A DNA stretch of 47,825 nucleotides from contig DATIHN010000018.1 of assembly GCA_035480635.1 (NCBI GenBank), forward strand, positions 1 through 47,825, written 5' to 3'. The stretch's first letter is position 1; the number at the start of each line of letters is the position of its first letter. The notes beneath the pieces are model-generated. The model was not told where the DNA came from and did not search any database. It saw nothing but the letters and a program-made list of their open reading frames with translations. Shown here one piece after another: positions 2,836-8,043 of the stretch. The translations under genes were made by a program, and so were the position numbers. Source of the stretch: Candidatus Saccharimonadales bacterium (lineage in GTDB: Bacteria > Patescibacteriota > Saccharimonadia > UBA4664 > DATIHN01).

Positions 2836-4443
2836 ATGAAATACTTTCTTTATGCTCGTAAATCAACCGAAGATGAAGAGAAACAGGTGTTATCGTTGGA
2901 GTCTCAGTTAGATCAGGCCAGGGCCACTTTCCCAAATTTGGACATTATTGAGCTACCTCCAGAGTCTGCGAGCGCCTTCAAACCCTATAACAGGCCCGTC
3001 TTTGATGATATGCTAAAGCGCATCGAGGCAGATGAGGCGCAAGGCATCGTTGCGTGGCATCCAGATCGCTTATCAAGGAATGAAGTAGATGCAGCTGCTA
3101 TTACTTACATGGTAAGAACAGGCAAGATTCTGGACCTGAAGTTTTGTTCGTATCCGTTTGATAACTCGCCAGAAGGAATAATGATGCTTCAAACCATCAT
3201 GTCCCACTCACAGTATTTTTCGGCAAAGCTAAGCAAGGACGTTAAGAGAGGCTTCGAAAAGAAACTTCAAATGGGATGGAAGCCAGGGATGACGAGAGTT
3301 GGGTATCTAAATACACCTGAACTAGATAAAGGAACCAAGATCATCATTAAAGATCCCGAACGCTTCGCAAACGTTCGGAAGATGTGGGAGATGCTCTTAT
3401 CTGGAGCATATACGGTCCCTGAGATCCTTGAGATCGCAAACAACGATTGGGGCTTCAGGACCAAGAAGAGGCGAAAGGTAGGTGGCGGTCCGTTATCAAG
3501 GAGTTGTATATACGACGTCTTTACAGACATCTTCTACACTGGTTGGTTTAGGCACAATGGAGAGTTGTATAAGGGCAAATACCCGCCCATGATTACAGTG
3601 GATGAGTTTGATCGTGCGCAAATGATCCTTGGTCGAAAAGGGAAACCACGCCCGCAAAAGCATAGGTTCGCTTTCACAGGGTTTATCCGTTGCGGTGATT
3701 GTGGCGGAGCGATTACCGCCGAATCAAAACTTAAGTTCATAAAAAGCTCGAAGCAGACTAAGAAGTACACCTACTATCGATGTACTTGGAAACGCCCATG
3801 CGGTCAACGCAAAGTTATGCGTGAGGAAGAGTTGGAAAGACAAATTGCTCAGATCCTGAACTCAATCACTATTCTACCCGAATTTAAAACCTGGGCAATT
3901 AAAGTCTTAAACCAGTCCAACGATTCCGAGATCGAGGATCGAACTAAACTCCACATCACTCAATCTAGAGGTACTCTTGAGACCCAAAAGGAGCTAGATA
4001 ACCTAACAATGATGCGCTATAGAGACCTGATCGATGACGAGGAATACTCATCTGAACGGAGCAAGCTAAAGGCAAAGCTAGCCAAGCTCCAAGAGAATCT
4101 GAGGAGCACTGAAGATCGGGCGTCAAAATGGTTAGAACTCACCGAACAGACATTTGAGTTTGCCACATATGCCAAGGAGAACTTCGAAAAAGGTGATCTA
4201 GGCACCAAAAAGGAAATCTTCGTTGCCTTGGGGAATAACCCAACAATCCAAAATGGAAAACTCGAAATCCAGTTGAATAACTGGTTCGTTCCAATTGCAA
4301 AAGCAGCCGGTGAATTAAATGCTGATTATGAAAAGATTCGAACTAATAAATATGCCTCCCCAAAGCAAAAAGAGGGCGATTTGGCCTCAATAAATGCAAA
4401 ATGGCTCCGGAGGCCGGATTCGAACCGGCAACCATCACCTTAA
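2836..4443 (+). CDS. Large serine recombinase (integrase) of the element
   Basis: 535 aa. The N-terminal resolvase domain (1-150) has YARKSTEDEE with the catalytic Ser at 10, and the HPDRLSRN motif. The recombinase domain follows (about 155-270), then a zinc ribbon (CGDCGG ... CTWKRPCG, about 285-325) and a coiled-coil segment (about 370-430). This order is normal for large serine integrases. The last 11 or so residues (RRPDSNRQPSP) are an antisense reading of the tRNA-Asn gene, and the stop codon at 4441-4443 lies inside the tRNA. The protein end is therefore set by the host sequence, and the free circular element would encode another C-terminus. Last gene of the element operon. Confidence 0.93.
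   Translation: MKYFLYARKSTEDEEKQVLSLESQLDQARATFPNLDIIELPPESASAFKPYNRPVFDDMLKRIEADEAQGIVAWHPDRLSRNEVDAAAITYMVRTGKILDLKFCSYPFDNSPEGIMMLQTIMSHSQYFSAKLSKDVKRGFEKKLQMGWKPGMTRVGYLNTPELDKGTKIIIKDPERFANVRKMWEMLLSGAYTVPEILEIANNDWGFRTKKRRKVGGGPLSRSCIYDVFTDIFYTGWFRHNGELYKGKYPPMITVDEFDRAQMILGRKGKPRPQKHRFAFTGFIRCGDCGGAITAESKLKFIKSSKQTKKYTYYRCTWKRPCGQRKVMREEELERQIAQILNSITILPEFKTWAIKVLNQSNDSEIEDRTKLHITQSRGTLETQKELDNLTMMRYRDLIDDEEYSSERSKLKAKLAKLQENLRSTEDRASKWLELTEQTFEFATYAKENFEKGDLGTKKEIFVALGNNPTIQNGKLEIQLNNWFVPIAKAAGELNADYEKIRTNKYASPKQKEGDLASINAKWLRRPDSNRQPSP
4402..4443. other. Probable right attachment junction of the element (3' half of tRNA-Asn)
   Basis: The element genes abut the 3' end of tRNA-Asn, and the recombinase frame crosses into it. 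The crossover core is probably in this part of the tRNA (T-arm to CCA). No second copy of this sequence was seen in 1-4400, so the left junction lies before the window. The exact core cannot be set from one end. Confidence 0.5.
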
Positions 4444-4476
4444 CAGGGTGTTGCTCTACCGTTGAGCTACTCCGGA
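4402..4476 (-). tRNA. tRNA-Asn (anticodon GTT)
   Basis: The minus strand folds as a full cloverleaf: acceptor TCCGGAG/CTCCGGA, D-stem GCTC/GAGC, anticodon loop CTGTTAA with GTT, T-arm GCCGG/CCGGC with TTCGAAT, discriminator G and an encoded CCA. The anticodon stem has an A-A mismatch at 27-43. G73 fits Asn identity. It lies downstream of its own promoter and doxX. Confidence 0.95.
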
Positions 4477-4948: not shown

Positions 4949-4979
4949 AAAACGAATACGCCCCAACTGGGACGTATTC
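4949..4979 (-). terminator. Hairpin terminator after the twin small genes
   Basis: 11-bp stem (4954-4964 with 4969-4979, one G-U), 4-nt loop AACT, and a TTTT run on the minus strand at 4952-4949. It separates the small genes from doxX. Confidence 0.65.
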
Positions 4980-5020: not shown

Positions 5021-5122
5021 TTATGGCTGGTGAACCCAGCGGTGATCAATCTGATCGATGGTTTCAAAATTGTAAGAGAAGAGGTAGCGGCGGTAAAGTG
5101 CTCGCCATTTTCGCTTGTTCAT
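5021..5122 (-). CDS. 33-aa basic microprotein, twin of the gene before it
   Basis: The frame MNKRKWRALYRRYLFSYNF... runs from an ATG at 5122 to a TAA at 5021. A strong ribosome binding site (AAGGAGG) lies within the end of the preceding 46-aa gene, whose TGA stop shares one base with this ATG, so translation is coupled. The first 14 residues follow the same MNKRK-x5-YRRYL pattern as the upstream gene. No membrane segment, no Cys. Function unknown. I consider it real because of the SD, the coupling and the shared N-terminus. Confidence 0.7.
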   Translation of the reverse strand: MNKRKWRALYRRYLFSYNFETIDQIDHRWVHQP

Positions 5123-5262
5123 CAAACTTCCTCCTTGGCTAATTTAGCGATTTGACCGGCCGTGACTGGCAACACGTGCTTGGTCCGCTCAGCGTGAATC
5201 AGGTCGTACAGGGCTGGGCCGAGGTATCGCCGGTAGGTGATTTTTAATTTACGTTTATTCAT
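5122..5262 (-). CDS. 46-aa basic microprotein, first of a coupled pair
   Basis: The frame starts MNKRKLKITYRRYLGPALYD and ends QIAKLAKEEV. The start codon is preceded by an excellent SD (AAAGGAGG, about 8 nt upstream). The N-terminus matches its downstream twin, which suggests duplication followed by divergence; the C-terminal half may be a short helix pair. It lies 162 nt after lexA on the same strand and ends at a hairpin terminator past the twin. Co-regulation with lexA is possible but not shown. Function unknown. Confidence 0.75.
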   Translation of the reverse strand: MNKRKLKITYRRYLGPALYDLIHAERTKHVLPVTAGQIAKLAKEEV

Positions 5263-5373
5263 TTTCCCCTCCTTTCACTCAACCGGCCCTTAACCCGGTT
5301 CGTGATGTTTTTATTTGTTAACGAATTCTTAGAGTTCTGCTAAGATACGCAAAGGACGTTTTCGAGCGTTCAC

Positions 5374-5410
5374 GAGAACTTCTTGCTTGCCGGCGGAGGT
5401 TCTCTTTTTT
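5374..5410 (+). terminator. Plus-strand intrinsic terminator with no plus-strand gene before it
   Basis: GAGAACTTC (5374-5382) pairs with GAGGTTCTC (5396-5404) over 9 bp when read as plus-strand RNA (one U-G wobble), followed by TTTTTT (5405-5410). On the minus strand the same stem has a mismatch and no T-run, so the orientation is plus. Two further hairpins (5281-5300, 5328-5344) lie upstream in the lexA-small gene gap. This points to an unannotated plus-strand RNA antisense to the small-gene leader. Confidence 0.6.
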
Positions 5411-5424
5411 ACTAATCGGATTTG

Positions 5425-6042
5425 CTAATACTTTCTAATCACTCCGATGCATATCCCTTGAATTTCAAACGGTGTGCCTGGTTTGACGATGATTGGATCC
5501 ATGGCTTGATTCTCCGGCTGCAGGCGAATGTGGTCGGCTTCTTTGTAGTAGCGTTTGAGTGTAGCCTCGCCGTTGACTAAAGCCACGATCATATCGCCCC
5601 GAGATGGCTCCGGCTTTTCCTGAATCACTACATAGTCACCGTCCATAATGCCGGCATCCTTCATGCTTTCACCCCGGACCTGCAAGACGTAGGAATGGCG
5701 GCGGCCGACCATAAATGGCGGAACCTCCAGGGTTTCGGCGTGGCCGCTGATAGTCTCAATCGGCTGACCGGCGGCGATTAGACCCATAATGGGCAAGCCA
5801 ACGCTGCGCGAGTCATCGAACTCTTCGGTGCTGGGGCTAACTAGTTGCAATGATCTAGCCTCGTTCTCGTTTTTACGCAAAAGTCCTTTGGAAATCAGCG
5901 TATCAACGTGCTCCGCCACCGTTGCGACTGAACCCAATTTGAAAGCCTCGGCAATCTCGCGGTAACTCGGTGCGTAACCATGCAATTCGATATACTGCGT
6001 GACGTAATCGAGAATCTCTTTTTGCCGCTTGGTTAATGGCAT
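5425..6042 (-). CDS. lexA: LexA SOS repressor
   Basis: 205 aa. The N-terminal winged helix (1-65) has LTKRQKEILDYV and YAPSYREIAEAF. The self-cleavage site is Ala-Gly in GLIAAGQPI (about 90), the catalytic Ser is in RGESMKDAGI (about 125) and the Lys in ATLKRYY (about 162), so all elements for RecA-stimulated self-cleavage are present. Length is normal. It has its own promoter with a candidate LexA operator inside (6100-6114), a leader hairpin GTCTGG/CCAGAC (6065-6080) and a strong SD 11 nt before the ATG. Downstream lie the twin microproteins, possible SOS-linked genes. Confidence 0.97.
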   Translation of the reverse strand: MPLTKRQKEILDYVTQYIELHGYAPSYREIAEAFKLGSVATVAEHVDTLISKGLLRKNENEARSLQLVSPSTEEFDDSRSVGLPIMGLIAAGQPIETISGHAETLEVPPFMVGRRHSYVLQVRGESMKDAGIMDGDYVVIQEKPEPSRGDMIVALVNGEATLKRYYKEADHIRLQPENQAMDPIIVKPGTPFEIQGICIGVIRKY

Positions 6043-6091: not shown

Positions 6092-6120
6092 AACATACCG
6101 AACAAAAACCGAATTGTCAA
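6092..6120 (-). promoter_or_regulatory. lexA promoter with candidate autoregulatory operator
   Basis: Minus strand TTGACA (6120-6115), 17-nt spacer, TATGTT (6097-6092). The spacer holds ATTC-N7-GTTC (6114-6100), one base from the direct-repeat LexA box GTTC-N7-GTTC known in alphaproteobacteria. Binding there would block RNA polymerase, giving the usual autoregulation. Operator identity is inference. Confidence 0.75.
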
Positions 6121-6157: not shown

Positions 6158-8035
6158 CTAATTCAGTTCTTTGACCACCGGGAAGTCGAGGCTGGATTTG
6201 TAGTGAGTCTGGATGGTATCGGTTTTGATAACATTGCCAGCTAAGTCTAAAATATCGCGGTAAAAAACCGTGGTCGAGGGCACGGTCGGGTTCCAGCCCG
6301 CCCCCCCCGCCGGATCGATAAAGTAGGGTCCGCGGATGCGGCCAGTTTTGACTTTGGTGCCGTAAAAATCAAACTTTAGGGTAGTGCCCGATAGGACAGT
6401 TTGAATCAGGATGTAATGCCCGGTATCGTTTTTGAATTTCAAATCGATGGAAGCGTTAAAGACGGTAGCATCAACGCCCGGCACGCCATAAGGCGCCGTA
6501 TAATAACCGACGGCAAAGGAGTGGTTGTGGCGCTCGACAATCGGTAGCCCCGAAAACAAAGCCGCGCGATAAGCCGTTGATGAAACCTGGCACATGCCGC
6601 CTCCATATTGAAACTCTTCATGGTCGCCCAGAATGACCAAAGCCGGGGCGTAACCAGTAGCTGGGCCAACATCGCCCAAGTTTGATTCGAACGAAAAGAC
6701 CTCATCGGGTTTGACCAGGACACCATTAAATTTAGCGGCCCCGACCCGGATATTTTGCATCCGAGCCGCTGGTGAGCCGGGGAAATAAGTTACGCCCTCG
6801 CCGATCAGTTCGTTGATACCCAGGTCATTCAAGTTGGCTTCGGTCACGGCCGGATCCATGGTTTTAACAGCCACCACAATGTTTCGATCGCTCGGTAATT
6901 TGACGAGCGCGGCTTTGATGGCGCTGGCCGTCCCGACCTGGTCCATATGGTAGCCGACGATGCTGGGTTGAAAGACAGTGGCGTGGCCATCTTGGATGGT
7001 TAGAGCGGCGTTTTGACCGGTTTTGTCGGTGGTTTTAGCTAGCCCAGCGACATAGGCAGCGATGGCTGCATCGCTAACACTTAGCGTCACTGGTACCGGC
7101 GGGGCGTAGTTAGCCACCTGATCGATCGTCAAATTTGGGGCTAACAACGATGGAGTCGGTCGATCAACACTAATCCATTTGATGATATCGGATAGCTGAA
7201 CCAAGGTAGTTTTGTTCAAAATCGCGAGCGTGATAGGGCCCTGCAAATAAACGTCGGCCTGCGATTTGGCCGATTCCAAGTCGCCTGTCTCAATATTTGG
7301 GCTTTGTTGGTAGATCGGTGCTGTAATGGCCTCTGCGCTGCTGGCGGCGATACGTTGTTCTAATGATCTAACGAGCAAACCAATATCCAGGCGTTGGCCA
7401 GCTTGGCCCGGGTTAACAGTAGCCCGCCCAGTATCGGAAAAGTTCAGAGTGGCATTTACGACTGGAGTATCGGTTTTCTCGACGATTTCGGCAACATAGG
7501 GCGCTAGTTTAGCATCGTCATAACTGTAATGCACCAATTTGGTGGGCCGGTCAGTAATGGCCCTGGCAACCTGACGCAGATGGTCGCCCAAGCTGCCCTC
7601 TCGGCCATGAGCGTAAGCTTCAGCCACAGCCGCATCGCTATCGTAGCTAATCCCGATTTGGGAAATGTCGACCGAAAGGGTCGTATTGCCATAGCTAATC
7701 GGCACCTGCTCATCTTGGTAAGTTTGGCTAGCCCGATCAAGCGCGGTTTTGGCTTGAGCCTTCGTCAGGCCACCCACGGACGTGCCATTAACGCTAACGC
7801 CAGGGTAGATTTTGCTGGCGTAGGCCACTTTGAAGCCAACCAAACTGGCGATGGCTATGATGCCGCCGACGCTAACTGCAATCAGCCAGTGGTGAGTCCG
7901 CTTCGGTCCCAAATCCGCAAAAGCGTCATCGCTATCGCTGCCGGAATCAGCGTCGAGGGTTTCGGCGTCTGCAATTGGGGCGATCGGCTGCTCAGAGGTC
8001 TTTGAATCGTCCTTGGATTTTTTTGCTCTGGCCAT
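6158..8035 (-). CDS. VanW-family wall-associated membrane protein
   Basis: About 625 aa. A cytoplasmic acidic N-terminus (1-48) is followed by one membrane segment (about 50-70) and two peptidoglycan-binding-4-like repeats (about 80-390). The VanW domain follows (about 395-580) with VRVGAAKFNG-like, VKPDEVFSFESNLG and the Cys-containing GGGMCQVSSTAYRAAL. VanW proteins are common in Gram-positive and CPR envelopes; the reaction is not settled. The start at 8035 is chosen because a TATAAT box lies 8 nt upstream; TTG at 8041 is less likely. A run of eight G (8 C on plus, 6301-6308) lies in the 3' part. Confidence 0.9.
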   Translation of the reverse strand: MARAKKSKDDSKTSEQPIAPIADAETLDADSGSDSDDAFADLGPKRTHHWLIAVSVGGIIAIASLVGFKVAYASKIYPGVSVNGTSVGGLTKAQAKTALDRASQTYQDEQVPISYGNTTLSVDISQIGISYDSDAAVAEAYAHGREGSLGDHLRQVARAITDRPTKLVHYSYDDAKLAPYVAEIVEKTDTPVVNATLNFSDTGRATVNPGQAGQRLDIGLLVRSLEQRIAASSAEAITAPIYQQSPNIETGDLESAKSQADVYLQGPITLAILNKTTLVQLSDIIKWISVDRPTPSLLAPNLTIDQVANYAPPVPVTLSVSDAAIAAYVAGLAKTTDKTGQNAALTIQDGHATVFQPSIVGYHMDQVGTASAIKAALVKLPSDRNIVVAVKTMDPAVTEANLNDLGINELIGEGVTYFPGSPAARMQNIRVGAAKFNGVLVKPDEVFSFESNLGDVGPATGYAPALVILGDHEEFQYGGGMCQVSSTAYRAALFSGLPIVERHNHSFAVGYYTAPYGVPGVDATVFNASIDLKFKNDTGHYILIQTVLSGTTLKFDFYGTKVKTGRIRGPYFIDPAGGAGWNPTVPSTTVFYRDILDLAGNVIKTDTIQTHYKSSLDFPVVKELN

Positions 8036-8043
8036 TACCAAAT

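Follow-up and report, generated by a model that had tools for sequence, protein, structure and literature searches.

Small SOS genes beside lexA in other bacteria

SulA is a cytosolic SOS effector that pseudomonads encode directly after lexA, and MciZ is a short peptide that inhibits FtsZ and is not an SOS gene. The bacteria analyzed here belong to a lineage of reduced, ultra-small, mostly epibiotic organisms. A comparative study of the SOS response in Patescibacteria was reportedly published in 2017 (cited in PMC7739468), and pausing of the cell cycle after DNA damage appears, from literature searches, to be undescribed in these bacteria. In many bacteria, unrelated SOS division inhibitors adjoin lexA (PMC6851548). 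Those of Gram-positives, namely, YneA, SosA, ChiZ, and DivS, are small, lexA adjacent, controlled by LexA, and poorly conserved between lineages (PMC6851548). They are membrane proteins, some with LysM, and the SosA gene is divergent from lexA. SidA (29 amino acids [aa]) and DidA (71 aa) are tiny damage-induced proteins of Caulobacter (PMC4211646), both membrane proteins that target late division proteins.

The window, by which we mean the whole stretch of 47,825 nt that was analyzed, corresponds to contig C18. Its genome (G000) measures 788 kb and is the only one sampled from its family; the order, probably one of Saccharimonadia, is represented by 11 genomes. The window contains two small open reading frames, ORF1 and ORF2, located after lexA on the same strand, as the first-pass annotation had placed them. 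ORF2 is a member of a new, previously undescribed small-protein family, which we call type A. Small gene size, lexA adjacency, and poor conservation between lineages are common to this locus and the Gram-positive systems. In contrast to YneA, SosA, ChiZ, and DivS, however, the proteins of the ORF1/ORF2 kind are soluble, and their genes lie downstream of lexA instead of diverging from it as the SosA gene does. Of the traits of the YneA/SosA type, lexA adjacency is thus present, whereas the single membrane span is absent; a membrane span also distinguishes SidA and DidA from the small proteins found here. Due to this soluble character, type A was not filed with the YneA/SosA or SidA kind. Type A resembles SulA in its position after lexA but not in its profile, since the small proteins did not match PF03846. 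MciZ can be likened to type A by size only, without a demonstrated sequence relationship.

Two overlapping genes with a common start

The features downstream of the lexA promoter are as follows.

6042..5425, minus strand, lexA (Pfam LexA_DNA_bind and Peptidase_S24), first gene of the putative operon
5263..5424, minus strand, spacer of 162 nt between the stop codon of lexA and the start codon of ORF1
5262..5122, minus strand, ORF1, ATG start, 46 aa; its 14 N-terminal residues duplicate those of ORF2, followed by its own C-terminal tail
5122..5021, minus strand, ORF2, ATG start, 33 aa; conserved type A member with the core MNKRKWRALYRRYLFSYNFE, predicted to be helical
4954..4979, minus strand, intrinsic terminator 3' of ORF2, with a stem of 11 pairs and the tail GTTTTGGGTT

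The coupling of the 46-aa and 33-aa frames through one common base (TGATG at 5124-5120) agrees with the first-pass annotation, as does the terminator behind them. A strong Shine-Dalgarno (SD) sequence in front of each frame, likewise claimed, was read in the upstream sequence of both, with AAAGGAGGGG(AAA)ATG for ORF1 and AAGGAGG(AAGTTTG)ATG for ORF2. The shared N terminus had been described as MNKRK-x5-YRRYL; the similarity stands, but the spacing is four residues (MNKRK-x4-YRRYL), and 9 of the 13 residues beyond Met are identical. None of 200,000 shuffles reached this similarity, and no other of the roughly 1.86 million start-stop frame pairs in the window matches as well. Used alone as a query, ORF1 gave weak matches in two genomes (G003 and G001), each to a small ORF directly 3' of lexA. 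The full type A core is found in ORF2 but not in ORF1, whose similarity ends at YRRYL. Judged by its sequence, ORF1 is a tandem copy of the first 14 ORF2 codons joined to a new tail, and it occurs in the window genome only. The earlier reading of two coupled small genes beside lexA is supported, with the correction that the two do not form an old conserved pair, ORF2 being the family member. Translation of ORF1 is considered probable.

The products had also been described as basic and soluble looking, and their properties fit. The pI is about 10.1 to 10.2 for ORF1 and ORF2 (9.9 to 10.7 across type A), and the best 19-aa Kyte-Doolittle windows average 0.27 for ORF1 and -0.42 for ORF2, so that no membrane span was detected in either by this measure. 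The small proteins are 28 to 54 aa long and have a moderate helical moment. AlphaFold modeled ORF2 as a single helix spanning residues 3 to 30, with a pLDDT of 85 over the first ten residues and confident prediction for about the first 20. In line with the earlier remark that no known family came to mind, searches of Pfam, NCBIfam, PHROGs, and PDB sequences returned no match to the small proteins.

Conservation of type A

Type A was defined by the core YR[RK]YLFSY.F together with a position after lexA, and both are found in ORF2 and in one gene each of G001, G003, and G004. These genes lie 3' of lexA on the same strand, and the four genomes come from four different families; apart from family f3, every family sampled in the order is represented. 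G004 carries MKRRKIRMLYRRYLFSYTFEVIPIKIKD 44 nt downstream of lexA; this member was recovered blind, with an E value of 1.3e-10, by a query alignment from which G004 had been left out. The G003 gene has a weak SD sequence and follows a gap of 220 nt. Conservation in relatives, to which the first-pass annotation had tied the reality of the frames, was thus observed, with the ORF2 core kept after lexA in 4 of 4 non-f3 genomes under purifying selection. The core comprises 23 residues (MNKRKLRxxYRRYLFSYSFEVI) and can be aligned in all four orthologues, with R4, R7, Y10, R11, Y13-Y17, and F19 (ORF2 numbering) invariant.

The frames are very short, the core family consists of four orthologues only, and the C-terminal tails differ in both length and sequence. 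These properties would suit an explanation in which the frames are nonfunctional and the conservation reflects a regulatory 3' region of the lexA mRNA or chance. The pattern of substitution argues against this. Across the 23 core codons, 12 to 17 residues are identical in pairwise comparisons of the four orthologues, yet 8 to 10 of these codons differ. dS in the core codons is saturated in every pair but one (1.36), while dN is 0.19 to 0.39; residues are therefore kept despite saturated synonymous sites. Conservation is also frame specific, as the proposed frame gave the highest identity of the six frames for all pairs, also those involving ORF1. Together with the strong SD sequences of most members, the blind recovery described above, and the lack of any Rfam match, this leaves the nonfunctional explanation very improbable, and the sequence comparisons indicate that ORF2 is almost certainly a real conserved gene.

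No further convincing type A member was detected in 393 genomes of the class, 380 genomes of the phylum, IMG/VR viral contigs, or plasmids. One candidate relative (G668) was rejected: its E value of 9.6e-4 per genome corresponds to chance level over 380 genomes.

LexA box and probable transcription with lexA

Upstream of lexA, two further features were identified.

6092..6120, minus strand, lexA promoter, TTGACA-17-TATGTT, reading TTGACA-ATTCGGTTTTTGTTCGG-TATGTT
6096..6114, minus strand, LexA box ATTCGGTTTTTGTTCGGTA, ATTC-N7-GTTC, a direct repeat (period of 11 bp) located between the -35 and -10 elements of lexA

A LexA box between the -35 and -10 elements of lexA is present in the order and in most of the class. 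Its spacing is identical to that of the alphaproteobacterial GTTC-N7-GTTC box (PMC8565304), and direct-repeat LexA boxes, which have been published for alphaproteobacteria (PMC8565304), are seen here in Patescibacteria. At the lexA promoters of loci L009-L018 and L091-L108, the repeat is highly regular, with a period of 11 and of the GTTC-N7-GTTC type. Near-perfect copies of the box precede recA and an operon containing a DinB-like polymerase in the window genome, the identities of these genes being taken from translations and not from a family search. Weaker candidate boxes in the same genome lie at genes judged by eye to be rmuC-like, radA-like, and comM-like. At L113 (G000:C13 near 53010), in an operon with a LexA box, two small ORFs of unknown type precede a DinB-like polymerase.

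No second good LexA box was found in the window; in the spacer 5263..5424, searches of the minus strand gave neither a promoter nor a terminator nor a LexA box. As the only LexA box is upstream of lexA, control of the small genes would run through the operon. With a LexA box in the lexA promoter and nothing between lexA and the small genes, SOS control can reasonably be inferred. Probably, lexA heads an SOS-induced operon in which the small genes form the final cistrons, and the layout makes SOS-controlled coexpression of ORF2 and lexA rather likely. In G004, a terminator is located 6 nt 3' of the small gene and none precedes this gene. A likely terminator was recognized by eye in G001 (about L011:2347-2365), where the tool did not report one.

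A different small gene in the same slot

A close LexA occurs in 30 of the 147 class genomes surveyed. Within the order, the gene that follows lexA is type A in four families; family f3 has a different gene of about 65 aa in the same slot (type B), with the pattern FEC.MY[IV]S..G...FRRLLAAFE. The type B genes found directly 3' of lexA in family f3 are as follows.

L016:2119-2328
L017:2121-2327
L019:2121-2345
L015:2112-2303
L013:2260-2451
L018:1178-1363, minus strand

Type B was also found on a public contig (L022, near 3744), and the copy in G008 is highly diverged (hmmsearch E value of 0.0077). It had no match in Pfam, NCBIfam, or PHROG, its AlphaFold model was poor (pLDDT of 58.6), and its profile did not match the window genome. 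Alignment of the two profiles paired YRRYLFSYNFETIDQ of type A with FRRLLAAFESVPQ of type B at 46% identity over 13 columns. Because the profile comparison gave a P value of 0.15, common descent of the two types is not claimed. The slot next to lexA is thus occupied by different small proteins across sister lineages. A common partner of types A and B is conceivable but doubtful. Even more doubtful is the specific proposal that two unrelated or extremely diverged proteins, which occupy one slot of the lexA operon and both have an [FY]RR[LY]L helix, would bind the same essential partner.

A script listing of the lexA loci of other class families revealed no small gene, although it did not place lexA in L105 and L106. 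Profile scans, which covered these two loci as well as the others, detected neither type A nor type B. The small gene is lacking in most other families of the class that have lexA and is therefore not essential to the SOS response there.

Possible function of type A

Our best guess is an SOS effector that is soluble, cationic, and helical, attaches to a partner in the cytosol, and perhaps pauses division or replication. DNA damage would activate RecA, which would lead to self-cleavage of LexA and to more lexA transcript, the small cistrons included. The type A peptide would then form a cationic amphipathic helix (YRRYLFSYSFE) docking on a cytosolic partner. We judge a division or replication protein to be the most likely partner, in which case a temporary checkpoint would result, similar to that of lexA-linked SOS inhibitors elsewhere; in family f3, type B would take the slot. 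Taken as a whole, an SOS-induced last cistron of the lexA operon whose helix docks on a cytosolic partner is the best explanation, held tentatively and with a little less than even confidence.

A peptide binding a cell cycle protein is favored because unrelated SOS division inhibitors lie beside lexA in many bacteria and SulA is absent from the order (PF03846 in 0 of 11 genomes, with a positive E. coli control). It should be noted that the known Gram-positive inhibitors beside lexA have a membrane span and that ORF1 and ORF2 have none, which counts against this reading. By analogy with those systems, action of type A as a cell cycle checkpoint may be entertained but is somewhat less probable still than the overall explanation.

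The tie to lexA would also be explained if the small protein tuned the SOS circuit itself, binding LexA or RecA and adjusting cleavage or shut-off. Linkage to lexA is strict in all genomes with the gene, and coexpression with LexA would be expected. However, very similar LexA proteins (61 to 67% identical) in other families of the class manage without the small protein, and Pfam and PDB sequence searches revealed no similarity to known RecA or LexA modulators. We regard this alternative as unlikely.

Short length, a pI of 10 to 10.7, and a moderately amphipathic N-terminal helix are properties that could also suit an SOS-induced cationic peptide that is toxic or acts on membranes and slows growth like small SOS toxins. 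Such a peptide is not easily reconciled with the lack of a membrane span, and the specific conservation of the aromatic and polar residues of YRRYLFSYSFE suggests a defined protein contact instead. Neither an antitoxin nor an antisense RNA was detected, and this role appears less likely than tuning of the SOS circuit. Equally improbable is a role in repair or translesion synthesis, as an accessory factor that binds a polymerase, clamp, SSB, or nuclease: SOS control of the small gene is expected, the helix is basic, and the dinB operon belongs to the same regulon, but the small proteins have no recognizable clamp-binding motif and no link to a polymerase gene.

Returning to the checkpoint reading, a conserved microprotein of the lexA operon with about 30 residues is a concrete candidate that can be synthesized and tested directly. 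If types A and B both bound one essential partner through their [FY]RR[LY]L helices, as in the more doubtful proposal above, they would be the first SOS checkpoint effectors identified in Patescibacteria and a soluble counterpart of the membrane-bound inhibitors linked to lexA.

Other genes near lexA

A large serine recombinase gene (2836-4443, plus strand; Resolvase, Recombinase, and Zn_ribbon_recom) is preceded by small HTH genes, and its 3' end enters a tRNA-Asn gene (4402-4476, minus strand). This region is probably an element integrated at tRNA-Asn. A search of the window for another copy of a tRNA 14-mer was negative. Just upstream of lexA, a VanW-like gene with PG_binding_4 is located at 6158-8041 on the minus strand. 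A VanW-like gene is also present at this position in G001 (L005:28-747) and is thus a conserved neighbor of lexA in the window and G001.
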